Positions 24,031 to 52,011 of a stretch of 64,000 nucleotides of DNA are shown here, piece by piece (position 1 is the stretch's first letter; each line of letters opens with the position of its first letter). Source of the stretch: Sphingobium sp. (GTDB lineage Bacteria; Pseudomonadota; Alphaproteobacteria; Sphingomonadales; Sphingomonadaceae); NCBI GenBank assembly GCA_020446425.1, contig JAGRES010000008.1:1-64000 (forward strand). The letters run 5' to 3'. The position numbers were made by a program, and so were the translations under genes. Under the pieces are notes generated by a model. It was not told where the DNA came from, searched no databases, and saw only the letters and a program-made list of their open reading frames with translations.

Positions 24031-24459
24031 ATGACTGACAAAACTCCAGATTCGAGCGAAAAGCGCGATTTGACCGACGATAACAGCGGCGTAGCGCGGC
24101 GCAGGCTGTTGCTGGGCGGCGGCATGGCGGCGGCTTCTGCCGTGGTTTCGATTCGCCCCGCTCTGGCGCAAACCGCTGCATCGGTGCTGCATTGCCAGAT
24201 TCCTGTGCCCGACCCCTCGCGGGCGGGACAGCATATCGCTGCGGACGGCAGTCTGGTTGCCCCCGGAACGGAAGGCGCTTTCCCGGGCAGCGGGCGTGCT
24301 TTCACCGGTGAGGAAGTGCGCACCGCAATGCGCGGCGGGCGGACATTGCCCGGCACGAGCTACGAACAGAATCGCGCCTATATCAATTATATCCGGCGGT
24401 TGCAGAGCGGGACGAGCGGATTTACCTGCTACGCATCGCTGCAGATGCCACGCCGCTAG
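24031..24459 (+). CDS. Small Tat-signal exported protein, first gene of the HprK-related cassette
   Basis: This 142-residue protein has no recognised family. An acidic 21-residue N terminus is followed by a twin-arginine leader (ARRRLLLGGGMAAASA) and a likely cleavage after PALA (residue 46). The mature part is about 96 residues, rich in Gly, Arg and Ser, with just two cysteines (C55 in VLHCQIP and one in GFTCYAS near the end), which might form a disulfide. The ATG at 24031 is favoured over the ATG at 23983, which lies within the palindrome. Its TAG stop overlaps the GTG of the PqqD-like gene, so it belongs to that operon and is a natural candidate for the modified substrate. That role is inference only. 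Confidence 0.75.
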   Translation: MTDKTPDSSEKRDLTDDNSGVARRRLLLGGGMAAASAVVSIRPALAQTAASVLHCQIPVPDPSRAGQHIAADGSLVAPGTEGAFPGSGRAFTGEEVRTAMRGGRTLPGTSYEQNRAYINYIRRLQSGTSGFTCYASLQMPRR

Positions 24460-24770
24460 TGCAGCAAGGCGAGGCGGACAGCAGCGGCAGTGCACGCCAC
24501 TATTATCGCGATGCTCCTGAAACTCTGATCGAACATGATCTCGATGGTCTGACGCTGCTTTTTCACCGTCCGTCCGGGCAGACACATATTATCGACAGCC
24601 CCATGCCGGAGATATTGGCTGCGCTGAGCTGCGAGCCCCAGGAACTGAGGGCGTTGTTGGGCGTTCTGGCCGACCGTTATGACCTCGCCGTCGATGGTGA
24701 TGCTATGCAGGAGCTCAAGGCGCATCTCGATGCATTGGTGTCCTTGGGTCTGGCAAGAACGGCGCCATGA
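24459..24770 (+). CDS. PqqD-family protein of the HPr-rel-A type system
   Basis: This 103-residue protein has the PqqD-like winged fold pattern: YYRDAPETLIEHDLDGLTLLFHRPSG, then THIIDSPMPEILAALS and a helical C terminus. PqqD-family domains bind leader peptides and deliver them to modifying enzymes. I match it to the group named HPr-rel-A system PqqD family peptide chaperone (from memory). It starts with GTG within the stop of the Tat-signal gene and overlaps the kinase gene by 4 bases. Confidence 0.82.
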   Translation: MQQGEADSSGSARHYYRDAPETLIEHDLDGLTLLFHRPSGQTHIIDSPMPEILAALSCEPQELRALLGVLADRYDLAVDGDAMQELKAHLDALVSLGLARTAP

Positions 24771-25633
24771 AATATCAGTGCATGCTCCGCATTGGCCCTG
24801 CGGCTTTCCGCATCGGCTCGGCATGGGCGGAGCCGATTGAGGCATTGCGCAGGCTGTATGCCCTATATCCGCAGCCTCAGGACGCAATCGCCGATTATAC
24901 TGTCAGGCTGGAACCTGCGGGCGTCGGGCGGCGCTGCTGGCGGCCCTCGGTGCGGATTGCGGGGGATCATATGCTGCCCGACGCCGCGCCCATGGCGCTG
25001 CGTCATGGCTTGCTGGCGGTGGAAATGGGCATGAACCTGCAAATGGCGCTGGGGTGGCGGCGGCATCTGCTAATCCACGCCAGCAGTGTCGAGAAAAATG
25101 GCCGCGCACTGGTGATGACCGGCGAGTCCGGTTCCGGCAAATCGACGCTGGCGGCGATGCTGGGCGAGCGCGGCTGGCGCTTCATGGGCGATGAATTCGC
25201 GCTGATAGACTGTGCAACCGGCATGGTGCATCCGTTTCCGCGTCTCGTGTCGCTCAAAAATCGGGCTATCGAGGCCATGCGCGATGAGGTTGCGAACGCC
25301 GACCGGTTCGGGCCGTTGATGGAGGCGACGCCCAAAGGTGACATCGTCCATCTTGTCCCTCCTGAAAGCGCAATCGCCCGGATGGTGGAGCCAGCCAAGC
25401 CGGTAATGCTGCTATTCCCGCGCTATGGTTTTCCGCTGGATCAGCGACCCGTGGGGCAGGGCGAGGCTTTCATGCGCCTGACACAGGCGTCGACCAACTA
25501 TGTTGCGCTGGGCGAGCAGGGGTTTCAGGCATTGCACCGCTTTGTCAGCGGTGTTCCGGCGTTGGCGGTCGATTATGAGGATGGTGAGCAGGCGATTTCC
25601 GCCATCGACGCATTATGGGAGGCGCTGCCATGA
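24767..25633 (+). CDS. HprK-related kinase A
   Basis: This 288-residue protein resembles the catalytic domain of HPr kinase/phosphorylase. Walker A is at about residues 119-127 (GESGSGKST), followed by RGWRFMGDEFALID, which corresponds to the second metal and phosphate site, and by a HPr-kinase-like FPRLVSLKN segment. No PTS genes such as ptsH lie nearby, so the target is probably not HPr; related kinases in lasso-peptide clusters phosphorylate peptide serine residues. It overlaps the PqqD-like gene (ATGA), and its last bases overlap the start of the nucleotidyltransferase gene. Confidence 0.86.
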   Translation: MKYQCMLRIGPAAFRIGSAWAEPIEALRRLYALYPQPQDAIADYTVRLEPAGVGRRCWRPSVRIAGDHMLPDAAPMALRHGLLAVEMGMNLQMALGWRRHLLIHASSVEKNGRALVMTGESGSGKSTLAAMLGERGWRFMGDEFALIDCATGMVHPFPRLVSLKNRAIEAMRDEVANADRFGPLMEATPKGDIVHLVPPESAIARMVEPAKPVMLLFPRYGFPLDQRPVGQGEAFMRLTQASTNYVALGEQGFQALHRFVSGVPALAVDYEDGEQAISAIDALWEALP

Positions 25634-26625
25634 GTGCGCGCCTGCTTGTCGAAGCGCTACGCGACCCCTCCAGCGTGCGCCTCTGGAACGCCAAGGCGTG
25701 GAATGGCGTCATCAGTGCCGCGCGGGCAGAGCGCCTGTTGGCGACTTTGGCGCACAGGCTTGATGGCGCGGATGTCCCGGAACCGGTCGCGCGCATATTG
25801 GCCGATGCCTGCCTCGACGCGGAACGGGATAAGCAGATTGCCTTGTGGGAAGCGGATCGAGCCATGGCGGTGCTGGCTCCGCTCGGTATCAGGGTCATTT
25901 TGCTGAAAGGGGCGGCTTATGCGGCTGCTGGCCTGAAAGCGGGTGAGGGCCGTATGATCGGCGATCTCGATATTCTCGTGCCGCGAGCACGCATGGACGA
26001 GGTTGAAGCGGCGCTGTTCGGCGCAGGCTGGGAATGGGTGAAGCCCGATCCCTATGACGATGCCTATTACCGGCAATGGATGCATGAGCTGCCGCCGATG
26101 ATCCACCGCGAGCGGGATCGCATGATTGACGTGCATCATACGATCCTGCCCCTGACCGCACGCCGGACACCCGATGCGGAGGCGTTGATCGTGGATGCAG
26201 TTGAGTTGCTCGGCGGATTATATGTACTGTCGCCGGAAGATCGCGTGTGCCATGCCGTGGCGCATATGCTGGCCGATGGCGATCTGGCTGGTGGATTAAG
26301 AAATCTATGGGATATTAAATATTTGATTGAAGATATTGATAATATATTTGAACTTAAATCTCGCGCTGCCCTGCATGGTCTTTCTTCCCACCTGAACATG
26401 GCCCGGCGCCTTGCAGCACATATATATGAGGGCAGCGAGCGGCCTCTAAGTTTACGCGAACAGCTGATACGGGATCGCCTGCTTGGCCGGGATGGTTGGG
26501 GTAAAGAAAGCAATAAACTATTGGGTCTGGGCTTCTATATCCGATCGCACTGGCTGCGCATGCCGCCACTGATGCTCATGCGCCATCTCTGGACCAAATG
26601 GCGCAAAGGCCACAGGCCGGTCTAA
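25630..26625 (+). CDS. Nucleotidyltransferase family protein (NTP_transf_5 type)
   Basis: This 331-residue protein belongs to the family of large uncharacterised nucleotidyltransferases found with HPr-kinase-like and lasso-peptide genes. The N-terminal helical part leads to VILLKGAAYAAAG and the metal-binding GDLDILVPR motif; a third acidic position is in RMIDVHHTI. The ATG at 25630 overlaps the kinase stop. Around 26285-26350 the coding DNA becomes strikingly AT-rich, unlike the upstream genes, suggesting different ancestry or mosaicism. Its stop overlaps the convergent gph stop by a few bases. Confidence 0.84.
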   Translation: MSARLLVEALRDPSSVRLWNAKAWNGVISAARAERLLATLAHRLDGADVPEPVARILADACLDAERDKQIALWEADRAMAVLAPLGIRVILLKGAAYAAAGLKAGEGRMIGDLDILVPRARMDEVEAALFGAGWEWVKPDPYDDAYYRQWMHELPPMIHRERDRMIDVHHTILPLTARRTPDAEALIVDAVELLGGLYVLSPEDRVCHAVAHMLADGDLAGGLRNLWDIKYLIEDIDNIFELKSRAALHGLSSHLNMARRLAAHIYEGSERPLSLREQLIRDRLLGRDGWGKESNKLLGLGFYIRSHWLRMPPLMLMRHLWTKWRKGHRPV

Positions 26626-31580: not shown

Positions 31581-31726
31581 AACCGGCGAAGCGAACAGTT
31601 GCAATTCGCTGGCGCCATCGGAACTTGGTGAACGCGTGTACGTTAGATGATCGCTAGCCCGGCATGGGATGATGATTATCGCTGCATTGCAAAATTGTGC
31701 TTGCAATGGACAGCCGATGCGGCACT

Positions 31727-33181: not shown

Positions 33182-33185
33182 CGTC

Positions 33186-34121: not shown

Positions 34122-34132
34122 AGGCAAATGTT

Positions 34133-34990: not shown

Positions 34991-35065
34991 GATTGCGCGC
35001 CGGAGGAAACTGGTGAATAGAGATCAGGCGTTTGGGGGCATGGTCCTGACATTGAAAGAAAAACA

Positions 35066-38239: not shown

Positions 38240-38267
38240 TGCCGCCTTATAGCAGGAACCTGTGGAA

Positions 38268-39812
38268 ATGAAGTTAAGCGAATTGCCGGTTCGTCCCATC
38301 GACCATCTACCCTTATTGGGGGATGAGGAGGCTCAGGCTGTTGGCGGCAAGGCGGGCGCGCTGAGCTATGCCGAGCTGGAAGCGGAAACCGGGCGGCTGG
38401 CGGCATGGCTGAAGGGGTTTGATTTCGCGCCGGGCAGCCGTGTTGCAAGCTGGGTTGCGAAGGGGCAGGTGGCATGCCTGATGCCATTGGCGGCGGTGCG
38501 CGCTGGCTATGTGCATGTTCCGGTCAACCCGCTGCTCAAGCATGCGCAGGTTGCGCATATTATGGGCGATAGCGGTGCGGCGCTGCTTGTCGCCTCGCAG
38601 AGCCGGTTGCGAACCTTGCAGGAAGGTGATGTGCCTGCGGCCTGTCACCTCAATGCCGAGGGCGATGTCGCCGCCGCGATGACGGGCGGAGCGCCTATGC
38701 CGCCTTCCGCGGGTCAACCGGACGATCTGGCGGCGATTTTATATACCAGTGGATCGACCGGGCGGCCCAAGGGCGTGATGCTGTCCAACGCCAATCTCTG
38801 GCTCGGCGCGGTTTCGGTCGCCGACTATCTGCGCATTACGCCGCAGGACCGTGTGCTGGGCGTGCTGCCGCTCAGCTTCGATTATGGGCAAAACCAGTTG
38901 CTCTCGACATGGGCGGCGGGCGGTGCGGTCGTCCCGCTCGATTATCTGACGGCGCGTGACGTCATAAAGGCTGTCGAGCGTGAGGAAATCACCACGATAG
39001 CCGGGGTGCCGCCGCTCTGGGTACAATTGGTCGAGGCAGATTGGCCGCCTAAAACTGCGGCGCGTATCCGGCGCATCACCAACAGCGGCGGGGCCTTGTC
39101 GACTACCTTAGTGGGCAAGCTGCGCGCATTATTCCCCAATGCCGATATCTACCCGATGTATGGCCTGACTGAAGCTTTCCGTTCGACCTATCTGCCGCCT
39201 GAGATGGTAGCCAGCCACCCGGAAAGCATGGGCCGGGCCATTCCGCATGCCGAGATATTGGTGTGCCGCACCGATGGCAGCATTACCGATGATGACGAGC
39301 CGGGAGAGCTGGTGCATTGCGGGCCGCTGGTGGCGCAAGGATATTGGAATGATCCGGAGCGTACGGCGGAGCGTTTCCGCCCTGCGCCTGCGGCATCGCG
39401 CTACGGCGGCACAGCGGTGTGGTCTGGCGATACGGTGCAGCGGGACGCGGAAGGCCTGCTCTATTTTATCGGGCGTGAGGATGCGATGATAAAGTCCGCA
39501 GGCAATCGCATCAGCTCGAGCGAGCTGGAGGAAGAGGCGCAGGCCGTGTCCGGCGTGGCCGAGGCGGTGGCGCTGGGTGTGCCTGACGAAAGATTGGGGC
39601 AGGCGGTGTTGTTGCTGGTCCGGCTGGTGGCAGGCGATGATGAAACCGATACGCTGCAGGCGCTGCAGGCACATTTGAAAGCGGAATTGCCCAATTTCAT
39701 GATGCCGCAAGAGATCAAGCTGGTTGACGCCTTTCCCCGTAACCCCAATGGCAAGATTGATCGCGTAGCCCTTGCGCGCGAGCATGTGGAAACGAAAGAG
39801 GCAGTGGCATGA
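38268..39812 (+). CDS. Acyl-CoA ligase (AMP-forming), exosortase A system-associated
   Basis: This 514-residue adenylate-forming enzyme has the core motif LYTSGSTGRPKGVMLSN, the A5-type YGLTEAFRSTYLP, the A7 YGGTAVWSGDTV and GREDAMIKSAGNRISSSELE hinge, and the terminal FPRNPNGKIDR with the catalytic lysine. I assign it to the exosortase A-associated ligase family from context and sequence. ATG 38268 has AGGAA at the right distance; GTG 38262 is too close. Its stop overlaps the decarboxylase start (ATGA). It may load the neighbouring ACP, but the substrate is unknown. Confidence 0.92.
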   Translation: MKLSELPVRPIDHLPLLGDEEAQAVGGKAGALSYAELEAETGRLAAWLKGFDFAPGSRVASWVAKGQVACLMPLAAVRAGYVHVPVNPLLKHAQVAHIMGDSGAALLVASQSRLRTLQEGDVPAACHLNAEGDVAAAMTGGAPMPPSAGQPDDLAAILYTSGSTGRPKGVMLSNANLWLGAVSVADYLRITPQDRVLGVLPLSFDYGQNQLLSTWAAGGAVVPLDYLTARDVIKAVEREEITTIAGVPPLWVQLVEADWPPKTAARIRRITNSGGALSTTLVGKLRALFPNADIYPMYGLTEAFRSTYLPPEMVASHPESMGRAIPHAEILVCRTDGSITDDDEPGELVHCGPLVAQGYWNDPERTAERFRPAPAASRYGGTAVWSGDTVQRDAEGLLYFIGREDAMIKSAGNRISSSELEEEAQAVSGVAEAVALGVPDERLGQAVLLLVRLVAGDDETDTLQALQAHLKAELPNFMMPQEIKLVDAFPRNPNGKIDRVALAREHVETKEAVA

Positions 39813-41044
39813 AGCCGATGGGTCCCATACCGCGCTGGTTCACGGCGGAAGGCGGCATGCTGCTGCTGGGCGGGTGCGGTGCGGCTTCGCTGGTTGACGA
39901 AGCGGGCGATACGCCGCTGTTCGTGTATGACCTCGATATCGTGCGGGCGACGATAGCGGGATTGCGTGCGGCCATGCCGGATGTGTTGCACCTCCATTAT
40001 GCGATCAAGGCAAACCCCTATGCGCCCTTGCTGGAGGCTATGGCCGGGCTGACCGATGGCTTCGATATTGCATCGAAAGGCGAGCTGGGCGCCGCTTTGG
40101 CTGCGGGAATGGCGCCCGATGCCATCAGCTTCGCCGGTCCCGGCAAGCGCGATGACGAATTACGCGCGGCCATACAGGCGGGGGTGACGCTGAATCTGGA
40201 ATCGGACGGCGAAGCGGATCGTGCGCTTGCCATTGCCGAAGCCGTCGGCGTTCGGCCCCGGCTGGCCGTCCGGGTCAATCCCGACTTCGATCTCAAGGGT
40301 TCGGGCATGAAAATGGGGGGAGGGGCCAAGCCCTTCGGCGTCGATGCCGATCGTGCCGCTGCGCTGGCATCCCGCATCATAGCCGCAGGTGCCGATTGGC
40401 AGGGATGGCATATTTTCGCCGGGTCGCAGGCGCTGGATGCCGGAGCGATTATCGAAACCCAGCGCGAGACTCTGGCTCTGGCGGCGCGGCTTTCCGATGC
40501 GGTCGGACAATGCCCGCCGTTGGTCAATATCGGCGGCGGGCTGGGCGTGCCCTATTTTCCCGGTGACGAACCGCTCGATCCGCGTCCTATCGGCCTTGCG
40601 CTGGAGGAAGCCATAACCATGGCGCCGGATATATTGGAGGAAAGCGCGTTCGCGATGGAGCTGGGGCGCTATCTGGTGGCGGAGGCGGGCGTCTATCTGA
40701 CCCGTGTTGTCGACGTGAAGGAAAGCCATGGCGAGCGTTTTGCCGTCGTGGACGGCGGCTTGCATCATCAACTCGCGGCCAGCGGCAATTTCGGTACGGT
40801 CGTGCGCCGCAATTATCCGGTCGCCGTCACCAATAGGTTCGGCGCGGAAACTGTCCCGGAACCGGTCACTATCGTCGGGTGCCTGTGTACGCCGCTTGAT
40901 CGTCTCGCGGACAAGGTTATGTTGCCTGAGGTCGCGCCTGGTGATTTGATAGCGGTGTTCATGGCGGGGGCATATGGAGCAACAGCTTCGCCGTCCGCCT
41001 TTCTGGGACATGCTCCGGCACTGGAGATGCTGGTAGAAGCCTAG
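39809..41044 (+). CDS. PLP-dependent decarboxylase, exosortase A system-associated
   Basis: This 411-residue protein is of the fold-III diaminopimelate/ornithine decarboxylase family. The PLP lysine is in HYAIKANPYAPLLE, the phosphate-binding glycine loop is NIGGGLGVPYFP, and the second-subunit residues include CLCTPLDRLADK with the conserved Cys. It probably supplies an amine or amino acid to the polysaccharide pathway, overlapping the ligase by 4 bases. It is distinguished from lysA by its pairing with the ligase and by TIGR03099-type sequence (recalled). Confidence 0.9.
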   Translation: MKPMGPIPRWFTAEGGMLLLGGCGAASLVDEAGDTPLFVYDLDIVRATIAGLRAAMPDVLHLHYAIKANPYAPLLEAMAGLTDGFDIASKGELGAALAAGMAPDAISFAGPGKRDDELRAAIQAGVTLNLESDGEADRALAIAEAVGVRPRLAVRVNPDFDLKGSGMKMGGGAKPFGVDADRAAALASRIIAAGADWQGWHIFAGSQALDAGAIIETQRETLALAARLSDAVGQCPPLVNIGGGLGVPYFPGDEPLDPRPIGLALEEAITMAPDILEESAFAMELGRYLVAEAGVYLTRVVDVKESHGERFAVVDGGLHHQLAASGNFGTVVRRNYPVAVTNRFGAETVPEPVTIVGCLCTPLDRLADKVMLPEVAPGDLIAVFMAGAYGATASPSAFLGHAPALEMLVEA

Positions 41045-41203
41045 GAAAACCGCGCGCCGGGTCATAAAATTTACAATATCACTAATAGTATTTTCACCCT
41101 TCTGCGCGATAGGGATTGAGGATTGGCATCATTGCGCCTGCTTTTTCCTGCTCGGGAAAAGGGGTGTGGACGCCATGAAACCTATAGGGATGGCACGGGA
41201 ATT

Positions 41204-41848
41204 ATGAGAATATCGACGCTTTTCAGGCTAATGCTCGCCTTGCTGATGCCCGGGCTGTTGCTGTCGGCCTGCGCCGGAGGTTCCAGAGGGCCGGAATTGC
41301 CGCCCGCATCCTTTGTTTCGACTCAGGAAGGGCCGGGTGAACAATATGTCATCGGGCCGCTCGATGAGCTGACCATTTTCGTGTGGCGCAACCCGGAGCT
41401 GGGCGCAAAAGTGCAGGTTCGCCCCGATGGACGCATCACCACCCCGCTGATCAGCGATATGCCCGCCGTCGGCAAGACACCGAAGATGCTGGCGGACGAC
41501 CTGAAACTCGCTCTGTCGCAATATATTGAAGACCCGCGTGTTTCGGTGATCGTAGATAAATTCTCCGGCACCTTCTCGCAGCAGATCCGCGTGGTTGGCG
41601 CGACCGAAAAGCCGGCCTCCATTCCGTATCGTGCCAATATGACCCTGCTTGACGCCATGATCGCTGTCGGCGGGCTGGGCGAATATGCCGCTGGCAACAA
41701 GGCGCGCCTCGTGCGTTTCGACAAGGAAAGCGGCAAGCAGAAGGAATATGCGCTGCGCATCAACGATCTGATCAAGCGCGGCGACACCAAGGCCAATGTG
41801 CTGCTGGCGCCGGGCGATGTCATCATCATTCCGGAAAGCATGTTCTAA
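41204..41848 (+). CDS. Polysaccharide export lipoprotein (XrtA system)
   Basis: This is a 214-residue Wza-like lipoprotein. A signal peptide ends at lipobox LSAC (residue about 19), then the Poly_export domain YVIGPLDELTIFVWRNPELG and SLBB-like IRVVGATEKPASIPYRANMTLLDAM follow, with APGDVIIIPESMF at the end. It forms the outer-membrane channel for polymer release. ATG 41204 is chosen; the reading frame is open from 41123. The 159 bases before it probably hold the operon promoter; no clear promoter motif was recognised. Confidence 0.93.
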   Translation: MRISTLFRLMLALLMPGLLLSACAGGSRGPELPPASFVSTQEGPGEQYVIGPLDELTIFVWRNPELGAKVQVRPDGRITTPLISDMPAVGKTPKMLADDLKLALSQYIEDPRVSVIVDKFSGTFSQQIRVVGATEKPASIPYRANMTLLDAMIAVGGLGEYAAGNKARLVRFDKESGKQKEYALRINDLIKRGDTKANVLLAPGDVIIIPESMF

Positions 41849-41886
41849 AAGCCATATCGGGCGCGACAGGGAGCGAGTAGACGATA

Positions 41887-43389
41887 ATGCCGAGCCTTTA
41901 TGACGAATTGCTGGTGGCGCTACATGGCGTATGGAACCGGCGCTGGCTGGCGCTGGGCGTGGCCTGGGCGGTCAGCGCGCTGGGCTGGCTCGCGGTTTCG
42001 CTGATCCCTAATTCCTATGAATCCAAGGCGCGCGTGTTTGTCGCCACCCAGTCGATTATTCAGGACAAGGTCGGCATTTCCCCGATTGAGCAGCAGAAAA
42101 ATCTCGACGGCCTGCGCCAGACGCTGGCCAGTGCGGTCAACCTGGAAAAGGTCGTGCGCGGTACGGATCTGGCCGGAACCGTATCGAACGACGCAGATGT
42201 ATCGGCGCGTGCGGCAGGTTTGCGCGACAAGATTTCGGTCGTCGCCGCGCAGGACAATCTGTTCGAAATCACAACGACCATGTCGGACAGCTCCATGTCG
42301 GACAAGGCGAATGCCAAGCTCGCGACCCAGATCACGCAGAAACTGATCGACATATTCCAGCAGGAAAATATCGTCGGCAACCGTGACGAGACGCAGCAGG
42401 GGCTGGCTTTTCTCGACGAGCAGATTGCCGAAACCGGCAAGGCGCTCGCTGAAGCGGAAAAGCGCCGCGTCGAGTTCGAGCAGAAGAATGGCATTCTGCC
42501 CGGTGTAGGCTCTATCGCGGATCGCATGCGCGCTGCCCGCACGGAGCTTGACCAGATAGACTCGCAGCTTATGGGCGCACAGAGCGCGCTTGCAGCGATG
42601 AACGGGCAGCTTGCGGCCACCCCCGCTACTATTGGCGGCGGGCCGACCGGCAATTCGGCGTTGGCCAAGGCGCAGGGCGAACTCGCCTCGGCCAAGGCAC
42701 GCGGCTGGACCGACGACCATCCTGATGTTGTCGCCCTGAAACGCCAGATCGGGGCTTTGAAAGCACAGGGTGGTGGCGGTTATGCAGGTGGAACGCCCAA
42801 TCCCGCCTATATGTCGATCAAGTCGATGCAGGCCGAACGGGCCGCGACTGTGCAAGCGCTCAATGCCCGCCGTACGCAAATCCAGGCCGATATCAACGCC
42901 ATGACGGCGCAGCAGGTTTCTGACCCCGGCTTTGCGGCGGAGCAGGAAAAGCTGGAGCGTGACTATGAAGTGCTCAAGAAGCAGTATGATAAACTATTGT
43001 CCGACCGTGGCGATGTGCGTCTTCAGGGTGACGTCCAGAGTGGAACAAAAAGCGCCACTTTCCGCGTGATAGACCCGCCGAGCGTGCCGACTTCGCCGGT
43101 GTCGCCCAATCGTCCGCTTCTGCTGTTTGGCGTGATGATCGTCGGCATCGGTGCCGGGATTGGCGCTGCCTTCGCAATGGATCAGGTGCGCCGCACATTC
43201 CCGACGGCGCAGCGCTTGTCTAAAGCAGCCGGGTTGCCGGTCATCGGTTCGATTACCGAAACGCTCAACCCATCGCAGATAGCAGACCGCAAGCACAAGC
43301 TGAAGCTGTTCGCCGGAGCGAGCGCAGGGCTGGGCGCGGCATGCGTGCTGCTCATCGTCGTCGAATTCATCCAGCGAAGCATGGCCTGA
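41887..43389 (+). CDS. XrtA-system polysaccharide chain-length determinant (Wzz-type)
   Basis: This 500-residue protein has two flanking membrane segments: an N-terminal one (LALGVAWAVSALGWLAVSLIP) and a C-terminal one (LLLFGVMIVGIGAGIGAAFA), with a third hydrophobic stretch at the end (AGASAGLGAACVLLIVVEF). The long periplasmic part is coiled-coil (EQIAETGKALAEAEKRRVEFE) with a Gly/Ala-rich middle. It sets polymer length together with the autokinase that follows. Its start is 38 bases after the export gene. Confidence 0.92.
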   Translation: MPSLYDELLVALHGVWNRRWLALGVAWAVSALGWLAVSLIPNSYESKARVFVATQSIIQDKVGISPIEQQKNLDGLRQTLASAVNLEKVVRGTDLAGTVSNDADVSARAAGLRDKISVVAAQDNLFEITTTMSDSSMSDKANAKLATQITQKLIDIFQQENIVGNRDETQQGLAFLDEQIAETGKALAEAEKRRVEFEQKNGILPGVGSIADRMRAARTELDQIDSQLMGAQSALAAMNGQLAATPATIGGGPTGNSALAKAQGELASAKARGWTDDHPDVVALKRQIGALKAQGGGGYAGGTPNPAYMSIKSMQAERAATVQALNARRTQIQADINAMTAQQVSDPGFAAEQEKLERDYEVLKKQYDKLLSDRGDVRLQGDVQSGTKSATFRVIDPPSVPTSPVSPNRPLLLFGVMIVGIGAGIGAAFAMDQVRRTFPTAQRLSKAAGLPVIGSITETLNPSQIADRKHKLKLFAGASAGLGAACVLLIVVEFIQRSMA

Positions 43390-43400
43390 GGGAGGACATC

Positions 43401-44429
43401 ATGGGCAAGGAAGATTTTCCCGGCCGTAAGCCGGAGCCAAACCCCAAGGGCCTGCTGGAACGCGCCGCCGAGGTGTTCGATTTCGATCGCGCGCTCAAAG
43501 GGGGCTCTTTGCCACCGCTTGATATTCCCGCCGATCTGATTCCGCCCGCCCCGGAGCCGAAAGCGGAACCGGCCCCTGCTCCTGCGGAATTTGCGCCCGT
43601 ACCGGAGCCTGTATCTTTCAAGCCGGCTACCGCCGCGCCAGAACCCGTGGCCGCGCCTGCTGCTCCGCGTGCGCGCGATTGGGCCGGTCCGGTGCATACT
43701 ATCGACCGCGACGCCATGGCGGAGGCGGGCCATCTTGTTCCTGGCGGCCCGGTTAGCGGGCTTGGTGAGGAATTCCGCATCATCAAGCGCGAAATATTAG
43801 CTCGTATCCGCGGCGCGCATAACAAGCAGGCGATCCCGAACGGCAATGTTATTCTGGTCAGCTCAACCCATTCGGGCGACGGCAAGACTTATTGTGCGGT
43901 CAATCTGGCGGTGTCGCTGGCGGCCGAGAGCGATGTCGAAGTGCTGCTGGTAGACGCCGATTTCGCCCAACCTGGTGTCATGTCCGCGCTTGGCATCGAG
44001 AACGGCAAGGGCCTGATGGACGCGCTTGTCGACCCTTCGATCCGTGTCGAGGATCTGGTGATGCGTACTGATGTACCGTCGCTGTTCCTACTTCCGGCGG
44101 GCGACGCGAGCCATAATGATGCCGAATATCTGGCCTCGTCCCGTACCGAAGCGCTGATCGCTTCGCTGGTATCGGGCCGCCCGGATCGTATCGTAATCTT
44201 CGATTCCCCGCCGTTGCTCGAGGCGTCGGTTGCGTCTGTGCTGGCCAGCCATGTCGGACAGACGGTGCTGGTGGTGCGCGCAGATCGTACGACCGAAACC
44301 GCGCTGCGCGATGCCGCCGAGCTGCTCAATGGCTGCGCCAATATCCAGCTATTGCTCAACGGAGTCAAATTCTCGGCCAGTGGCCGCCGGTTCGGCACCT
44401 ATTACGGCAAGGAGGACGGAGCGGCGTGA
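43401..44429 (+). CDS. XrtA-associated tyrosine autokinase (BY-kinase type)
   Basis: This 342-residue cytosolic kinase has an N-terminal Pro/Ala/Glu-rich linker (about residues 40-95), then Walker A (SSTHSGDGKTYCAVNLA), Walker A' (VLLVDADFAQPGVMSALG) and Walker B (IVIFDSPPLLEA). The usual C-terminal tyrosine cluster is reduced to GTYYGKEDGAA. ATG 43401 follows a GAGGGAGG ribosome site. It controls polymerisation with the chain-length protein and shares a GTGA overlap with the next gene. Confidence 0.91.
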   Translation: MGKEDFPGRKPEPNPKGLLERAAEVFDFDRALKGGSLPPLDIPADLIPPAPEPKAEPAPAPAEFAPVPEPVSFKPATAAPEPVAAPAAPRARDWAGPVHTIDRDAMAEAGHLVPGGPVSGLGEEFRIIKREILARIRGAHNKQAIPNGNVILVSSTHSGDGKTYCAVNLAVSLAAESDVEVLLVDADFAQPGVMSALGIENGKGLMDALVDPSIRVEDLVMRTDVPSLFLLPAGDASHNDAEYLASSRTEALIASLVSGRPDRIVIFDSPPLLEASVASVLASHVGQTVLVVRADRTTETALRDAAELLNGCANIQLLLNGVKFSASGRRFGTYYGKEDGAA

Positions 44430-46033
44430 TCAAGGCTGTACGCCTTTTCTGCCTGAATGGCTTGGGCCTGGCGGTCGCCGCCATGGCTTCGTCCGCTTAT
44501 GCGCGCACCGAAGTCGCGCCCTATATTGAGCTTGATCAGACCTTTATCGCCAATCTGAAAGGCGGTAGCGACGATGTGCTGACATACACATCGGCGGCTA
44601 TCGGCGTTGACGCGACGATGGAAACGGCGCGCAGCGAGGGGCAACTCAGCCTGCGCTACGAGCATCAGTTCGGGTGGAACCGCGCATCGGCGGACTCTGA
44701 TATTCTCTCCGGCCTTGCCCGTGCGCGTTACAGCGTCATGCCCGAAACGCTCAGCATTGAGGGCGGCGCGCTGGCGACGCATGTACGCACGGATGGTTTT
44801 TCCAGCGCCAATGGCTCGCTCGCCGTCGCGGGTGACGCGAAAACCAATGTCTATTCGCTCTATGCGGGGCCGACTCTCTCGACGCGGGTCGATGAGGTAG
44901 ACGTCGAGGCGTCCTATCGCATCGGCTACACACGCGTCGAAGATGACGTCAGCCTCAGCGTACCGGGGCAGGTCGAGCTGGGCCGCTTCGATGAGAGCGT
45001 TTATCACAGCGCGACTGCGTCTGTCGGTCAGCAGCCGGGTGGATATCTGCCCATAGGTTGGGCCATCGGCGCGGGCTATGACCGCGAAGACGCGACCGAG
45101 CTTGATCAGCGCTATGTCAGCAAATGGATACGCGGCGATGTGACCGTGCCGATCACCTATAGTTTGGCATTTGTCGGCGGCATTGGCTATGAGGATATCA
45201 GGATAAGCCAGCGCTCCGTGCTGCTGGACGGTAATGGCAATCCGGTGGTCGGCTCCAATGGCCGACTCGTCACCGATCCTGCCAGCTCGCGCCAGATCGC
45301 CTATGATATTGACGGCCTCATCCGGGATGCCGGTGTGTTGTGGCGGCCCAGCCACCGTACCTCGCTCGAGGCGCGGGCGGGCGAGCGCTACGACAGCATG
45401 CATTATGTCGGTAATTTCTCGTGGCGCGCATCGCCGAACAGCATGCTGCAAATCGCCTATTTCGACACAATCGACAGCTTTGGCCGTGCGATGAACAACA
45501 GCCTGATCGCAGTACCGAGCTCCGGCTTTGTTGTACGCCGTAATCCGTTCAGCAGCGATATCACCGGTTGCGTCGGCGGTCAGGACGGCGGCACATGCTT
45601 CAACGACGCCCTGGCGGCGATCAGCGCCTCCAACTATCGCCATCGCGGCATCGAAGGCCAGTATAGCTGGGCGCGTGGGCGCTGGAACTGGGGTGCGGGC
45701 TTTGGCTGGTCACAGCGCAAGTTCATTGCGCCGGACAACAGCGTGCTCGCCTCGATCAACGGCGAGAAAGACTATTATTATTTCGGCGAGCTGTTCGGTG
45801 GTGTGAAGCTGAACGAAGTCTCGAATCTTGGCGCCACGCTCTATGGCAGCCATCTCGATGCGGGGCTGAGCAGCGTCGATGTCACCAATTATGGCACCTA
45901 TGTCAGCTATAGCCGTTTGTTTGGAAGGCGCTTGAGCGCGCAGGCCTCGCTGGGGCTCGATGCGCTCGATACGTCGGATCTGGAAACGATCATCAGTTTG
46001 CTTGGGCAAGTGGGTGTGCGCTACCAGTTTTGA
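44426..46033 (+). CDS. XrtA-associated outer-membrane beta-barrel protein
   Basis: This 535-residue protein has a signal peptide (LGLAVAAMASSAYA) and then alternating hydrophobic/aromatic strands (LSLRYEHQFGWNRA, SYRIGYTRVEDDVSL, RWNWGAGFGWSQRKF), ending in VGVRYQF, the classical barrel C-terminal Phe. It matches the TIGR03016-type PEP-CTERM-associated outer-membrane family by position and fold. The GTG start overlaps the autokinase stop, with AAGGAGG upstream. It probably provides or helps the outer-membrane polymer exit. Confidence 0.88.
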   Translation: MIKAVRLFCLNGLGLAVAAMASSAYARTEVAPYIELDQTFIANLKGGSDDVLTYTSAAIGVDATMETARSEGQLSLRYEHQFGWNRASADSDILSGLARARYSVMPETLSIEGGALATHVRTDGFSSANGSLAVAGDAKTNVYSLYAGPTLSTRVDEVDVEASYRIGYTRVEDDVSLSVPGQVELGRFDESVYHSATASVGQQPGGYLPIGWAIGAGYDREDATELDQRYVSKWIRGDVTVPITYSLAFVGGIGYEDIRISQRSVLLDGNGNPVVGSNGRLVTDPASSRQIAYDIDGLIRDAGVLWRPSHRTSLEARAGERYDSMHYVGNFSWRASPNSMLQIAYFDTIDSFGRAMNNSLIAVPSSGFVVRRNPFSSDITGCVGGQDGGTCFNDALAAISASNYRHRGIEGQYSWARGRWNWGAGFGWSQRKFIAPDNSVLASINGEKDYYYFGELFGGVKLNEVSNLGATLYGSHLDAGLSSVDVTNYGTYVSYSRLFGRRLSAQASLGLDALDTSDLETIISLLGQVGVRYQF

Positions 46034-46082
46034 GAAAGGATAAGGCGGCGGGTTGCTACCGGCGTCAGGGAGAAGCAAGGCG

Positions 46083-47294
46083 ATGTACGATCAATATTAT
46101 GAGCTGAAGGGGCGCCCGTTCCAGCTTACGCCTGATCCGCATTTCTATTTTGAGAGCGCGACCCATCGCAAGGCGCTGTCCTATCTTGGCTATGGTCTGG
46201 CGCAGGGTGAGGGCTTTATCGTCATCACCGGCGATATCGGCGCGGGTAAGACGACGCTGGTCGGCCATGTGATGTCGACTATCGACCCGCAGCGCCTGAC
46301 CGCCGTCAAGATCGTCTCGACCCAGGTCGAAGGCGACGATCTGCTTCGTCTGGTCGCGCAGAGCTTCGGTATTACCGAGGAAGCGTTGCCCAAGGCGCAG
46401 CTGTTGCAGCGGATCGAGGCGTTCCTGCATTCGCAGGCGCGCAAAGGGCTGCGTACGCTGCTGATCGTCGACGAGGCGCAGGGGCTGGGCGTTTCCGCGG
46501 TTGAGGAACTGCGCATGCTCAGCAATTTTCAGCTGGGCGGGCAGGCGCTCTTGCAGATTTTCCTGCTGGGTCAGCCGGAGTTTCGCGATCTTATGAAATC
46601 GCCGGAGCTGGAGCAGTTGCAACAGCGGGTGATCGCCACGCATCATCTGGAACCGATGCTCGCCAACGAGGTCGAACCCTATATCAAGCACCGCCTCGCG
46701 CTCGTTGGCTGGCATGATAATCCGCGCATCACGCAGGACGCCTACGCCGCCATTTATGCGGCGACCGATGGCGTTCCGCGCCGTGTCAATGCGCTGATGA
46801 GCCGCGTATTATTGCTGGGCGCTATCGACCGCCTCGGCGAGATTGACGCGCAGGTGGTCAATGCTGTCGCTGCCGATATGGGATTGGACAATGATCGTGA
46901 TTCCACGTCGATGGCGGCGTCTCCGCTGGACGAGGTAACCGAAGAGACGGACGCCGAAATGGTTATCGAGCCCGAGGAGCCATCCGAAGAGCTTGTCGAG
47001 GATGTACCGTTCGTTGAAGCCGAAGAAGTGGAAGTCGCCAGTAATGAAGGCGGTGCTGATGCGTTCGAGCTGCACCGTATCCGCGATGAGCTGGAGGATC
47101 TGCGCCGTGCGATCAGCCTGACGGGTGGCGCGAGCGGAAACCAGAACGCGCTGATCGACAAGCTGAATATGCTGGAAGTGCGTCTGACGGCTGCGGAAGC
47201 GCGTACGGACGATCATGAAAGCGCATTGCGCCGGGTTTTGACGCTTCTTGTCGAATGGGTTGAAAACGACGAGAACGGGTCTCGCGCGGCCTGA
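46083..47294 (+). CDS. XrtA-associated ATPase (ExeA/GspA-like AAA)
   Basis: This 403-residue ATPase begins MYDQYYELKGRPFQLTPDPHF as ExeA-type proteins do. Walker A is TGDIGAGKTTLVGHV and Walker B is TLLIVDEAQGLG. After residue about 285 a Glu-rich linker and a coiled coil (ELHRIRDELEDLRRAIS) follow, and the typical ExeA membrane span and peptidoglycan-binding domain appear to be missing. It may energise assembly or export. ATG 46083 is chosen over the frame's earlier codon at 46053. Confidence 0.9.
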   Translation: MYDQYYELKGRPFQLTPDPHFYFESATHRKALSYLGYGLAQGEGFIVITGDIGAGKTTLVGHVMSTIDPQRLTAVKIVSTQVEGDDLLRLVAQSFGITEEALPKAQLLQRIEAFLHSQARKGLRTLLIVDEAQGLGVSAVEELRMLSNFQLGGQALLQIFLLGQPEFRDLMKSPELEQLQQRVIATHHLEPMLANEVEPYIKHRLALVGWHDNPRITQDAYAAIYAATDGVPRRVNALMSRVLLLGAIDRLGEIDAQVVNAVAADMGLDNDRDSTSMAASPLDEVTEETDAEMVIEPEEPSEELVEDVPFVEAEEVEVASNEGGADAFELHRIRDELEDLRRAISLTGGASGNQNALIDKLNMLEVRLTAAEARTDDHESALRRVLTLLVEWVENDENGSRAA

Positions 47295-47329
47295 TGGGCT
47301 GAAGCGTTATCCGCTGAAGGATTTTCATA

Positions 47330-48199
47330 ATGTCCTCAATTATCAATGCAATATCTGTTGATATTGAGGATTGGTTTCAGGTTGGGGCCTTTGAAACCAC
47401 TATCTCCAAAGCCGATTGGGATAGTCTGTCACCGCGGGTCGAGCGCAACACGGACGCGGTTCTCGCGCTGTTCGCGGAATCTGGCGTTAAAGGCACTTTC
47501 TTCACATTGGGATGGGTAGCAGAGCGCTTTCCGGCGCTGATCCGGCGCATTGTCGATGCCGGGCATGAGCTGGCCAGTCATGGCTACAACCATCAGCGCG
47601 TCTTCACCTTTACGCCCGACCAATTTCGCGCGGACCTGAAGAAATCGCGCGATCTGCTGGAGCAGGCGGGCGGGGTGAAGGTCAATGGATATCGCGCGCC
47701 CAGCTTTTCCATAGATGCACGCACGCCCTGGGCACACGCCATATTGGTCGAGGAAGGCTATCGCTATTCCAGTAGCGTCGCGCCTGTGGTGCATGATCAT
47801 TATGGCTGGCCGCAGGCCCCGCGTTTCGCTTTTCGGCCGCTGGCTGACAGTGGATTGACGGAATTGCCGGTTACGACCGCGCGTCTTGGCGGCAGAACAT
47901 TGGCAGCTGGCGGTGGCGGGTTTTTTCGCCTGCTGCCCTATGCATTCTCGCGCTGGGCCGTGCGGCAGGTGAACGGGCAGGACAAGCGCCCGGCGATCCT
48001 CTATTTTCATCCGTGGGAGATCGACCCGGACCAACCGCGCGTAGCGGGTGCCCCGCTCAAATCGCGCCTGCGTCATTATACCAATCTGGGCGTCATGGCG
48101 CCGAAGCTACGCCGCCTGATCGCGGATTTCGAGTGGGGCCGGGTCGACGCGCTGGTTGAAGCCCAGGCAAAGGATGCGCCATGCTGGCCCGTGCAATGA
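47330..48199 (+). CDS. Polysaccharide deacetylase, XrtA type
   Basis: This 289-residue NodB-fold deacetylase has the metal Asp/Asp pair in SVDIEDWFQVG, the two metal histidines in ELASHGYNHQRVF, the YRAPSFSID substrate motif, and a C-terminal PAILYFHPWEID. It likely removes acetyl groups from the polymer. No signal peptide is visible, so it may act on the cytoplasmic side or be exported by another route. Its stop overlaps the next ATG. Confidence 0.93.
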   Translation: MSSIINAISVDIEDWFQVGAFETTISKADWDSLSPRVERNTDAVLALFAESGVKGTFFTLGWVAERFPALIRRIVDAGHELASHGYNHQRVFTFTPDQFRADLKKSRDLLEQAGGVKVNGYRAPSFSIDARTPWAHAILVEEGYRYSSSVAPVVHDHYGWPQAPRFAFRPLADSGLTELPVTTARLGGRTLAAGGGGFFRLLPYAFSRWAVRQVNGQDKRPAILYFHPWEIDPDQPRVAGAPLKSRLRHYTNLGVMAPKLRRLIADFEWGRVDALVEAQAKDAPCWPVQ

Positions 48200-49239
48200 C
48201 TGTTTCTTTCGCCAATCTTGACGATGCAATCCAGTATCAGGAGCTGGAGCAGTGGGTATGCGCCCATCCGGCTTCCACACCCTTTCACCGCCCGGCATGG
48301 ATTAGCGCGGCGGCGCGCGGAACCGGGCAGCAGGCAATGATGCTGGTGTGCCGGCATGGTGGCAGCATCCGGGGCGTATTGCCGCTCAATCTTATTCATT
48401 CACCCCTATTCGGGAGGGCGCTGGTTTCCAGCGGTTTCGCGGTCGATGGCGGGATATTGGCGGAGGACGCCGAAGCCGTTGAGGCGCTGGCACAGGCATG
48501 CTGGAATCTGGCGGAAGCCAATAGCGCGCCGACGGCGGAACTGCGTGGCGGCATGATGCCGCAAAAGGACTGGAAGCTGAAAAGCGATGCCTATCTGGGT
48601 TTCGCCAAGCCTCTGGAAGCCGATGACGAAGCGCAATTGCTCGCCGTTCCCAAGCGTCACCGCGCCGAAATCCGCAAAGGGCTTGGCAACGACTTGACGA
48701 TTGAGACTGGCAACAGCCGCCGGTTGCTCGAAATTCATTACCGGCTCTATGCCGAGAATGTGCACAGGCTGGGTACGCCGGTATTCCCTAAAGCGCTGTT
48801 TTCGCGCGTGATGGATGCGTTCGGCGATGATGCCGATATTTTGATGGTGTCCAAAGACGGTGCGCCGCACACGACGGTTGTCAGCCTCTATCATCGCGGT
48901 GCCTGCATACCCTATTGGCATGGTGCGACCTGGGATGCGCGGTCGTTGCGGGCCAATGAGGCCGGCTATTACCGGCTGATGGGCCATGCGCGTGAGCGTG
49001 GTTGTACCGTTTTCGATTTCGGACGTTCCAAGGTAGGCACCGGTCCGGCGCTATGGAAGAAAACCTGGGGTTGGGAGGGGGAGCCGCTCACCTATGCTAC
49101 GCGCGCTGCGCCGGGTATGGAGCCGCGCGATATCAATCCGCTGTCCCCGCAATATCAGCGCAAGGTTGCGCTGTGGAAGAAGCTGCCTTTGCCGCTGGCC
49201 AATCGTATCGGCCCGTTCATTGCGCGCGGTCTGGGTTGA
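48196..49239 (+). CDS. FemAB-family protein, PEP-CTERM system-associated
   Basis: This 347-residue tandem GNAT protein resembles the FemAB family that adds amino acids to cell-wall or polymer precursors. Key stretches are FHRPAWISAAARGTGQQAMM, KRHRAEIRKGLGNDLT, HTTVVSLYHRGACIPYWHGA and FDFGRSKVGTGPALWKKTWG. The ATG at 48196 overlaps the deacetylase stop (ATGA); an ATG 15 bases upstream is possible. It would cooperate with the amidotransferase further on to decorate the polymer (inference). Confidence 0.9.
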   Translation: MTVSFANLDDAIQYQELEQWVCAHPASTPFHRPAWISAAARGTGQQAMMLVCRHGGSIRGVLPLNLIHSPLFGRALVSSGFAVDGGILAEDAEAVEALAQACWNLAEANSAPTAELRGGMMPQKDWKLKSDAYLGFAKPLEADDEAQLLAVPKRHRAEIRKGLGNDLTIETGNSRRLLEIHYRLYAENVHRLGTPVFPKALFSRVMDAFGDDADILMVSKDGAPHTTVVSLYHRGACIPYWHGATWDARSLRANEAGYYRLMGHARERGCTVFDFGRSKVGTGPALWKKTWGWEGEPLTYATRAAPGMEPRDINPLSPQYQRKVALWKKLPLPLANRIGPFIARGLG

Positions 49240-49245
49240 TCTGTC

Positions 49246-50454
49246 ATGACGGCAGGCGGCGATATTCTCTTTCTGGTGCATCGCATCCCCTTTCCGCCGG
49301 ACCGGGGGGATAAAATCCGTTCTTATCATATGCTCAAGGCGTTCGCGGAGATGGCGCCGGTACATGTCGGCTGTTTTGCCGACGATGATCGCGATATGGG
49401 CTTTGCCACGGATCTGGCGCGTGTTGCAGCCAGCCAATGCGTTGTAAGGCGTGATCGGTCGAAGGCCATGGCTGGCCTTGCCGGTTTGTTCAGTCATCGT
49501 TCCATACTGGTTTCGATATATGAGAACCCGGAGCTTCATCGCTGGGTGAGTGAGATACTGGCGACGCGGCCTATCCGGGCGATTGTCGCTTATTCCGTTC
49601 AGATGGCGACCTATGTGCCCCTCGATTTGCCGCCCGGTTGCCGGTTCATGATGGATTTTGTCGATTTCGACAGCGCCAAATATGCCGCTTATGGTTCGGA
49701 GCAGGACGGTTTCATGGGTTGGGTCAACCGGCGCGAAGGGCGCGTGCTGCTGGATTTCGAGCGGGAAGTGGCGCGGCGTGCCACTATATCCACCTTTGTC
49801 AGCGCCGCCGAAGCGCAATTATTCGCACAAACCGCTGACGTTCAGGATCGTGATGTGCAGGCCCTTGATAACGGGGTAAATCTGAATTATTTCAACATAG
49901 AAGAAGATATATCTCCAATTGAAAATGAAGAAAATCCGTTGCTCGTTTTTACAGGGCAAATGGATTACCGGCCCAATATCGAGGCGGTGGAGAGCTTTGC
50001 GCGCGAAGCCCTGCCCATTGTACGCGCCAAATATCCCACTGCGACCTTCGTCATCGTAGGCCGCAATCCCACGCCGCAGGTTCAGGCATTGGCGTTGCAG
50101 CCCGGCGTGATCGTGACAGGGGGCGTGCCAGATATACGCGGGTGGCTCATGGCAGCGGATGTCGTGGTCGCGCCGTTGCGGATCGCACGTGGTATCCAGA
50201 ACAAGGTGCTCGAAGCCATGGCGATGGGGCGGCCTGTCGTCGCCAGCCCGCAGGCGGCGGAAGGTATTGATGCAGTCAATGGCGAGCATTTCGTCGTCGC
50301 CGCTGACCCGCAGGCGGAAGCCGAGGCTGTGCGTGCCTTGCTCGCTGATCCGCAGCAGGCTGCGTTGCTGGGCAAGGCGGCGCGGGCGCGGATGGAACAG
50401 CGTTATGACTGGGCGGCGACACTTGCGCCGCTGCGCGAAATGGTGCTGGGGTGA
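49246..50454 (+). CDS. Glycosyltransferase, XrtA/PEP-CTERM system-associated
   Basis: This 402-residue GT-B enzyme (GT4 type) has the opening FLVHRIPFPPDRGDKIRSYHML that fits the TIGR03087-type family, the middle DNGVNLNYFN, and the donor-site block PLRIARGIQNKVLEAMAMGRPVVASP. The E-x7-E-like motif EAMAMGRP is present. At about residues 215-230 a short acidic stretch (NIEEDISPIENEENP) is coded by unusually AT-rich DNA and interrupts the normal linker between domains. Sugar donor is unknown. Confidence 0.9.
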   Translation: MTAGGDILFLVHRIPFPPDRGDKIRSYHMLKAFAEMAPVHVGCFADDDRDMGFATDLARVAASQCVVRRDRSKAMAGLAGLFSHRSILVSIYENPELHRWVSEILATRPIRAIVAYSVQMATYVPLDLPPGCRFMMDFVDFDSAKYAAYGSEQDGFMGWVNRREGRVLLDFEREVARRATISTFVSAAEAQLFAQTADVQDRDVQALDNGVNLNYFNIEEDISPIENEENPLLVFTGQMDYRPNIEAVESFAREALPIVRAKYPTATFVIVGRNPTPQVQALALQPGVIVTGGVPDIRGWLMAADVVVAPLRIARGIQNKVLEAMAMGRPVVASPQAAEGIDAVNGEHFVVAADPQAEAEAVRALLADPQQAALLGKAARARMEQRYDWAATLAPLREMVLG

Positions 50455-50458
50455 AGCC

Positions 50459-52000: not shown

Positions 52001-52011
52001 AGCACATTCCC

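Follow-up and report, generated by a model that had tools for sequence, protein, structure and literature searches.

Four overlapping genes of a Sphingobium sp. contig raise the question of what a kinase, a nucleotidyltransferase and a putative leader-binding protein could be modifying together. The window, that is the whole stretch of 64,000 nucleotides analysed here, carries this cassette at positions 24031-26625. A first-pass annotation had seen in it a leader-guided protein modification system acting on a target outside the phosphotransferase system (PTS), with uncharacterised chemistry. The kinase and the PqqD-family chaperone are in fact already named in NCBIfam (TIGR04352, TIGR04353), though without a target, and our search of the published literature on HPr-rel-A or HprK-related kinase A brought up neither a publication on this system nor a name for what it modifies. 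We argue below that the target is very probably the product of the cassette's own first gene, and that the three helper proteins probably add a phosphate, perhaps also a sugar or nucleotide, to its tail before export. The partner family with its tail motif, the co-retention of partner and kinase and the association with exosortase-A loci are new here.

The cassette and its enzymes

The four genes are real and intact, as read straight off the window, and the overlapping operon described at first pass is confirmed in its TAGTG and ATGA junctions. All lie on the forward strand. The first (24031..24459, ATG start, TAG stop) encodes a protein of 142 aa with a twin-arginine leader, the presumed substrate, hereafter the partner; an alternative in-frame ATG lies upstream at 23983. 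A TAGTG overlap joins it to the gene of a PqqD-like peptide chaperone of 103 aa (24459..24770, GTG start; TIGR04353, 57.7 bits for a cut-off of 35). Through an ATGA overlap follows HprK-related kinase A, of 288 aa (24767..25633; TIGR04352, 231.1 bits, cut-off 200), and then a nucleotidyltransferase family protein of 331 aa (25630..26625, ATG start; PF14907, 168.5 bits, cut-off 31.2). This last overlap also reads ATGA, and not the TGAGT type initially reported. Promoter and terminator scans were uninformative. A sigma-54-like site ahead of it was discarded, since such sites number 103 over the window and 86 +/- 10 in shuffles, not clearly above chance.

Custom profiles recover the kinase, nucleotidyltransferase and PqqD-like genes as a set in 61 of 63 sphingomonad loci and in 42 of 57 other loci; among the 15 that fall short are cut contigs and 10 loci with no PqqD-like protein detected. 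The gene set is therefore not a chance assembly. Those 10 loci, L165-L170 among them, imply that the PqqD-like protein is either not universal or too divergent there for the custom profile. The generic PqqD model PF05402 has no match in the whole genome at E<=0.001. Two further genes, each typed once, were noted beside the set: a TPR-sulfotransferase directly 3' of the kinase in 6 loci and a GT4 glycosyltransferase ahead of the PqqD-like gene in 7 Sphingobium loci.

Both enzymes retain their catalytic residues. In the kinase, H104, K125-S126-T127 and D142-E143 are invariant in 24/24 aligned rows; in solved HPr kinases, the residues aligned with H104, K125 and D142-E143 are H, K and D-D, Glu being the second acid here. 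In the nucleotidyltransferase, K93, R108, D112xD114 and D167 are invariant in 39/39 aligned rows. The loss of Walker A and GD-x-D residues, which would have spoken against a modification system, is thus not observed in these rows. The nucleotidyltransferase is modelled by AlphaFold with a pLDDT of 94.6 as a pol-beta-type fold resembling that of nucleotidyltransferases for small molecules, for example ANT(2'')-Ia. Against the canonical HPr kinase model TIGR00679, the cassette kinase scores 22.6 bits for a cut-off of 240, and we reject its identification as the HPr kinase of a PTS.

A conserved, putatively exported partner

The first gene of the cassette defines a conserved family. In the window protein, the leader spans residues 23-46 (RRRLLLGGGMAAASAVVSIRPALA; 24097..24168, forward strand); a twin-arginine RRR followed by an ALA (AxA) site can be read directly and constitutes a putative Tat signal, for which Tat models gave weak matches below cut-off, or none, with the partners tested. 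A leader profile, built iteratively from the cassette loci themselves, detects such a partner in 155 of 181 loci, counted with duplicates; in these, the leader-bearing gene ends no more than 3.5 kb upstream of the kinase gene. The conserved co-encoded protein that the first-pass annotation proposed to look for thus exists. No leader protein lies nearby in the other 26 loci, only some of which are accounted for by contig ends or relocation.

The partner is retained even when unlinked, being far from the kinase in 5 of 7 genomes of group g6. Leader and tail are present in the four of these copies that were read, and likewise in that of genome G053; the fifth, L189, was missed by the filter. Across the 113 genomes of the window's family, with at most 20 candidates scored per genome, a strong partner match (E<1e-50) occurs in 31 of 32 kinase-positive genomes and in none of 81 kinase-negative ones; genome G194 has a weak match (E 3.8e-4).

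For the window partner, neither Pfam (at E<=1) nor NCBIfam (over cut-off) yields a family, none of ten partners tested attains an NCBIfam cut-off, no PDB entry matches the fold at E<=0.001, and both annotated plasmid records examined list a 'hypothetical protein'. In the AlphaFold model, residues 1-47 have a pLDDT below 50.

A C-terminal tail motif

Near its C-terminus the window partner carries T132-C133-Y-A-S136-L (TCYASL; 24424..24441, forward strand), of which S136 is our proposed acceptor. A tail of the form [S/T]-C-hydrophobic-x-S-hydrophobic occurs in 105 of 129 non-identical partners and spans 10 of 22 otherwise unrelated families of mature part. Among 1870 other ORFs it is found in 2 for the fuller motif and 7 for the less full form, and shuffling yields at most 2/129. 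T132, C133 and S136 are invariant in 49 aligned rows, and the Ser, within a CxxS motif, stands 2-7 residues from the C-terminal end in 84 of 108 cases. Tail-bearing partners fall on both sides of one supported split in a kinase tree of the 42 intended rows that passed a P-loop filter. Leader-bearing proteins encoded elsewhere in four genomes also carry a [ST]CxxS-type tail. The last three blocks of the AlphaFold model (pLDDT 76, 57 and 64, versus 90-96 for the core) predict a flexible tail adjoining a folded core.

Four partners without the Cys retain the Ser (AAYTSL, GAYASL, AGTSI and AAYTSI), a pattern defined only after these four had been inspected. The invariant Cys could equally be the modified residue or form a disulfide. 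The tail is absent from the last 35 residues in 24/129 partners and from the last 60 in 21/129, and the class without it is mostly betaproteobacterial. In nine loci, of which two are duplicates of each other, an N-proximal SG(N/K)x(S/T) takes its place; hence either there is a second type of site, or modification does not occur at the tail.

Polysaccharide loci and other neighbours

The cassette recurs in many bacteria, often in or near surface polysaccharide gene clusters. The window itself contains, 12 kb downstream of the cassette, an exosortase A (XrtA)/PEP-CTERM exopolysaccharide locus (38262..53904, forward strand) that was overlooked at first pass and that comparative genomics ties to the cassette. 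It scores over cut-off for TIGR03098, 03099, 03027, 03007, 03015, 03006, 03019, 03087, XrtA TIGR03109 and TIGR03108, and below cut-off for TIGR03018 and TIGR03016. Distances between kinase and XrtA were counted in all 74 genomes with both proteins over cut-off. In the order's other families, 33 of 42 such genomes have the cassette no more than 15 kb from XrtA. In the window's own family, XrtA is present in 32/32 cassette genomes and near the cassette in one, the present genome; it is farther away on the same contig in 16 and on other contigs in 15. Of the 36 genomes without XrtA, 22 have TIGR03108 no more than 5 kb from the cassette. By its NCBI name, TIGR03108 is also an ordinary component of XrtA loci; it occurs there without the cassette too.

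The cassette is absent from 53 of the 127 genomes with XrtA in the order sample. In the phylum sample, 61 genomes have the kinase and 36 of them lack XrtA over cut-off, 29 of these 36 having no exosortase at E<=1e-5. We therefore reject a strict dependence of the cassette on XrtA. The Fisher p-values computed for co-occurrence are uncorrected for kinship, and we do not count them as proof.

This setting could suggest that the substrates of kinase and nucleotidyltransferase are sugars, lipids or carriers used in making polysaccharide, the Tat protein being a separate periplasmic component, and the ANT(2'')-Ia-like fold would suit such substrates. We consider this improbable: it leaves unexplained the PqqD-family member of the set, a tail motif common to otherwise unrelated families and the co-retention of unlinked partner and kinase.

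In sphingomonads of the window's family, the cassette also adjoins pho/pst genes (labels assigned by us; a plasmid record annotates the same order). Because this is shared sphingomonad synteny and was not made out in the mapped non-sphingomonad stretches, we give it little weight as a functional clue. It might favour a signalling switch in which the kinase reversibly phosphorylates HPr or the PqqD-like protein according to phosphate or energy state, as might the kinase's homology to HPr kinase and the presence of an HPr gene in the genome. The claim that no PTS is present holds only locally, since the contig also carries that HPr gene, at a distance of about 119 kb. This distance, a score far under that of true HPr kinases and the polysaccharide neighbours in many other families make the switch very unlikely.

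A proposed maturation pathway

On balance we lean towards the cassette being a dedicated maturation line for one exported protein, in some genomes two; the conserved partner and the invariant catalytic residues support the kind of system initially proposed, a leader-guided one with a non-PTS target. The PqqD-like protein would capture the partner in the cytoplasm via its leader, although the leader might serve Tat export alone and not be a PqqD-binding element. The HPr-kinase-like enzyme would then phosphorylate the conserved tail Ser, and the pol-beta-fold enzyme would add to the Ser phosphate a nucleotide or, as with its lasso-peptide counterpart, a sugar. Tat would export the modified, folded partner, which would act at the cell surface with polysaccharide from exosortase-A-type loci.

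If this is right, a named but unexplained system gains a concrete candidate target, down to the residue, together with a cellular context. Machinery of the RiPP type (leader binder, kinase, nucleotidyltransferase) would mature a folded Tat-exported protein, and protein phosphorylation or phospho-glycosylation would be tied to exosortase-type exopolysaccharide loci, which floc-forming and environmental bacteria need. A bolder and rather doubtful extension is that, through the phosphorylated, sugar-bearing Ser, the partner anchors, primes or caps the polysaccharide. With such a protein-polysaccharide linkage, these loci would have a second system of C-terminal tagging, which could substitute for exosortase in genomes that lack it.

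Comparison with known systems

A close parallel is the tailoring of lasso peptides by PadeK/ThcoK/PsmK and PsmN. Two reports describe phosphorylation of lasso precursors at the C-terminal Ser by HPr-kinase homologues, and a nucleotidyltransferase homologue that is required for a hexose on that phosphate (PMC9266682, PMC8498205). Compared by these descriptions, both systems combine an HPr-kinase-like enzyme, a nucleotidyltransferase-type enzyme and a PqqD-type leader binder, putative in the present case, with a Ser near the C-terminus of the known or presumed substrate and a sulfotransferase in some clusters. Unlike lasso precursors, the presumed substrate here is folded and bears a twin-arginine leader, and the presumed acceptor lies inside a CxxS tail motif.

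These shared enzymes, with a sulfotransferase in some loci, would also fit a RiPP-like pathway in which the partner serves as a precursor and its C-terminal segment, once modified, is cleaved off and released as a small product. TIGR03108, the nearby protein of loci lacking XrtA, weakly resembles lasso cyclases: the asparagine-synthase-like protein at 52012 belongs to it and reaches 266.5 bits with NF033535, for a cut-off of 525. TIGR03108 is, however, normal in XrtA loci, and no cyclase exceeds that cut-off among the subset of window proteins scanned; we reject a lasso cluster identity for the cassette. Four ORFs at 31697-35803 have no NCBIfam match at E<=1e-5. No protease is seen within the cassette, in a search run without B2 models, and the partner's predicted well-folded conserved domain and leader with AxA site better fit an exported protein. 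We hold release of a small product to be unlikely.

The XrtA/PEP-CTERM system often shares loci with the cassette, and both involve C-terminally tagged proteins that are, or in the partner's case would be, exported. The partner tail is not of the PEP-CTERM type and has no membrane helix, and the cassette also occurs in loci without XrtA. Our search found no literature linking exosortase with PqqD or with HPr kinase, and the accessible parts of two PEP-CTERM papers (PMC1569441, PMC9850573) make no mention of HPr or nucleotidyltransferase.

For the kinase, the next-best named family is the HprK-like ScmC of the SynChlorMet system (TIGR04249), at 32.6 bits far under its cut-off of 125. The cassette consists of the same genes as the HPr-rel-A system of NCBIfam, with TIGR04352, TIGR04353 and PF14907 all over curated cut-offs; we take NCBI's definition to count the adjacent NTP_transf_5 nucleotidyltransferase as well. 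HPr-rel-A covers enzyme names only, and to these the present analysis adds a partner family, a tail motif and a polysaccharide-locus context.

The cassette and its enzymes

The cassette comprises four genes on the + strand (24031-26625), neighbours sharing a few bases, as read directly from the sequence. The first encodes a twin-arginine-leader protein of 142 aa, hereafter the partner, and is followed by those of a PqqD-like protein of 103 aa (TIGR04353, 57.7 bits against a cut-off of 35), a kinase of 288 aa (TIGR04352, 231.1 bits, cut-off 200) and a nucleotidyltransferase or NTase of 331 aa (PF14907, 168.5 bits, cut-off 31.2). These last three family matches identify the cassette as one already named HPr-rel-A system by NCBI, which names no target for it; a full-text literature search found no paper on this system. 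The partner family, its tail motif and the link to polysaccharides are additions to the NCBI naming and to the first-pass annotation. The latter had suggested a peptide or protein modification system and was right in kind.

Judging from their catalytic residues, both enzymes look active. Kinase residues H104, K125-S126-T127 and D142-E143 are invariant in 24/24 aligned kinases; when solved HPr kinases are aligned to them, these positions hold His, the P-loop Lys and Asp-Asp. A study of lasso-peptide kinases describes a His-Lys-Asp-Asp motif for these enzymes (PMC9266682). In the NTase, K93, R108, D112xD114, D167 and H169-H170 are invariant in 39/39 aligned sequences. Its structure is predicted with high confidence (mean pLDDT 94.6), and the closest solved folds are pol-beta-type nucleotidyltransferases, MenT1 being the best match (E 8.5e-4) and ANT(2'')-Ia the next; FKRP appears as a weak match.

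Across 57 loci (L124-L180), the PqqD-like protein was not detected in 10 and the NTase not in 6, one locus lacking both; some of these loci sit at contig ends. Six loci (L152, L153, L157, L159, L171, L172) carry a gene of ~565-595 aa directly after the kinase, whose one typed member (L152) is a TPR-sulfotransferase, and the NTase comes after this gene in 4/6. Seven Sphingobium loci (L064-L070) have a gene directly before the PqqD-like one, at ~8.3-9.7 kb of each locus, typed in L064 as a GT4-type glycosyltransferase.

Conservation of the partner

The locus set contained 80 loci kept from one contig scan (63 sphingomonad, 17 other), together with 60 loci from a genome search and 40 stretches of at most 20 kb, partly from the same genomes. 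Partners were searched with an iterated leader profile on the same strand, ending at most 3.5 kb upstream of the kinase, and such a leader-bearing protein was found in 155 of 181 loci (window included, duplicates counted). Some of the 26 loci without a nearby leader protein are contig ends or short flanks; four belong to Sphingopyxis (L108, L110, L116) and Sphingomonadaceae (L117) and may represent the same group as genus g6 of the comparative samples, where kinase and partner are widely separated in 5/7 genomes. Leader and tail are present in four of these five distant copies (L187, L188, L191, L192); the fifth, L189, was not recovered by the filter used. The partner of locus L066 appears to have its leader and its mature part in different reading frames.

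In the window's family (113 genomes, at most 20 candidates per genome scored by the partner profile), a strong match (E<1e-50) occurs in 31 of the 32 kinase-positive genomes and in none of the 81 kinase-negative ones, among which G194 gives a weak match (E 3.8e-4). The 32nd kinase-positive genome, G053, has a weak match on another contig (E 4.8e-9), with a leader followed by GLSCLNSFF. Three genomes of genus g11 carry kinase, XrtA (exosortase A) and partner, and three others have none over threshold.

A shared tail on unrelated mature parts

The tail was analyzed in 129 partners distinct in their last 60 residues, whose mature parts form 22 families (BLAST, E<1e-3). The motif [ST]CxxS lies within the last 35 residues of 105 partners spanning 10 of these families, and the count remains 105/129 when hydrophobic residues are also required after Cys and after Ser. 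Shuffled partner tails gave this fuller motif 0.18 times on average and twice at most. Among 1870 other ORFs of the same loci, obtained with a simple gene caller, [ST]CxxS was found in 7 and the fuller motif in 2; control ORFs with an RR-like start had [ST]CxxS in 1/83. Extending the search to the last 60 residues raised the number to 108/129, the serine lying 2-7 residues from the end in 84 of these 108. In four further partners the Cys is missing but the Ser is retained with Leu or Ile after it, a pattern defined after inspection. T132, C133 and S136 are invariant in 49/49 sphingomonad partners. In the predicted structure of the window partner, confidence is high in a core at about residues 61-120 (block means 90-96) and drops along the tail (76, 57, 64); no solved fold matched at E<=0.001.

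The tail is absent from the last 35 residues of 24/129 partners and from the last 60 of 21/129. Partners of nine loci (two being one genome read twice) have an N-proximal SG(N/K)x(S/T), followed in several by a GYWK-like segment, and ten further loci fit neither partner class by the patterns used. A Vibrio alfacsensis plasmid carries a cassette at 31.5% identity whose partner contains SGNAS; the gene table, which is incomplete, lists no polysaccharide genes within 16 kb of it. This stand-alone cassette (L193:14878-17945) consists of a class B partner annotated as hypothetical, kinase and NTase, the first two separated by an unannotated ORF. Four genomes of another family, f5 (L182-L185), also encode leader-bearing proteins with the [ST]CxxS-type tail away from the cassette, and two such proteins stand in tandem at L186 in genome G082; the system may have several substrates.

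Polysaccharide context

An exosortase A locus lies 12 kb beyond the cassette (38262-53904), with TIGR03018 and TIGR03016 proteins below cut-off; genome-wide there are ten PEP-CTERM matches. The XrtA ORF as listed (50159-51997) overlaps the upstream glycosyltransferase gene; since the XrtA match starts only at residue 129, translation probably begins close to 50.5 kb. Four consecutive ORFs between cassette and XrtA locus (31697-35803) matched no NCBIfam family at E<=1e-5, and a second exosortase-like protein is encoded in the same genome outside the window (G000:C27:98644-99417; XrtA model 143.8 bits, cut-off 208).

Among 196 genomes of the order, XrtA exceeds its cut-off in 74 of 88 kinase genomes, and among the 14 that remain, 8 encode an XrtA-like protein scoring 177-205 bits; the kinase is absent from 53 of 127 XrtA genomes. 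Kinase and XrtA are 4.1-14.5 kb apart in 33 of 42 genomes from other families of the order and on separate contigs in the remaining 9. In the window's family, they lie within 30 kb in the window only (25.8 kb), farther apart on one contig in 16/32 genomes and on separate contigs in 15/32, and pho/pst genes adjoin the cassette in most mapped loci. The link in this family is thus one of co-occurrence (32/32), not of neighbourhood, and this recount of distances weakened the physical association in the window's own family.

In a phylum sample of 398 genomes, the kinase occurs in 61, accompanied in 25 by XrtA over cut-off. The remaining 36 genomes lie outside the order, many being incomplete; in 29 of them no exosortase was detected at E<=1e-5. 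Each of the 36 gives some match to TIGR03108, an asparagine-synthase-like protein of exosortase-A-type polysaccharide loci, and 33 pass its cut-off, below-cut-off matches occurring in 4/14 control genomes too. TIGR03108 is on the kinase contig in 24/36 and within 5 kb in 22/36. Genome G201, a single contig with 99% completeness and without an exosortase match, has the order TIGR03006, TIGR03019, TIGR03087, TIGR03088, partner, PqqD, kinase, NTase, TIGR03108, the cassette occupying the position held by XrtA in the window. The neighbours in locus L143 are EpsB_2, PrsK, PrsR and PrsT. Of the 48 kinase genomes outside the order, 32 were sampled as stretches of at most 20 kb (L141-L172). At least one of nine polysaccharide markers, each assigned through clustering with a single typed member, is present in 26/32 stretches and none in 6/32.

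A proposed maturation route

Lasso-peptide kinases homologous to HPr kinase phosphorylate the precursor at its C-terminal Ser, and a nucleotidyltransferase homologue is required for attaching one or two hexoses to this phosphate; the same study leaves room for true nucleotidyl transfer followed by the action of a host glycosyltransferase (PMC9266682). Lasso clusters of this kind may include a PqqD-type B1 protein and a sulfotransferase, according to two other reports (PMC8498205, PMC7533575). Here a lasso-type enzyme set is combined with a partner that carries a leader and, close to the C-terminus, a conserved serine; on this ground we propose a maturation route. The PqqD-like protein would capture the partner through its leader, the tail serine would be phosphorylated, the NTase would add to the serine phosphate, and Tat would then export the partner. 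Tat transports folded proteins, and its use fits a protein needing modification with cytoplasmic ATP before export. The polysaccharide loci suggest that the exported partner may have a role in attachment or assembly of surface polysaccharide. The recount also revealed loci with no detected PqqD-like protein, but our confidence in the proposed chemistry was kept because its basis, the partner and its tail, was upheld. The cassette would work in the manner of lasso-peptide tailoring, although the test applied does not make it a lasso cluster.
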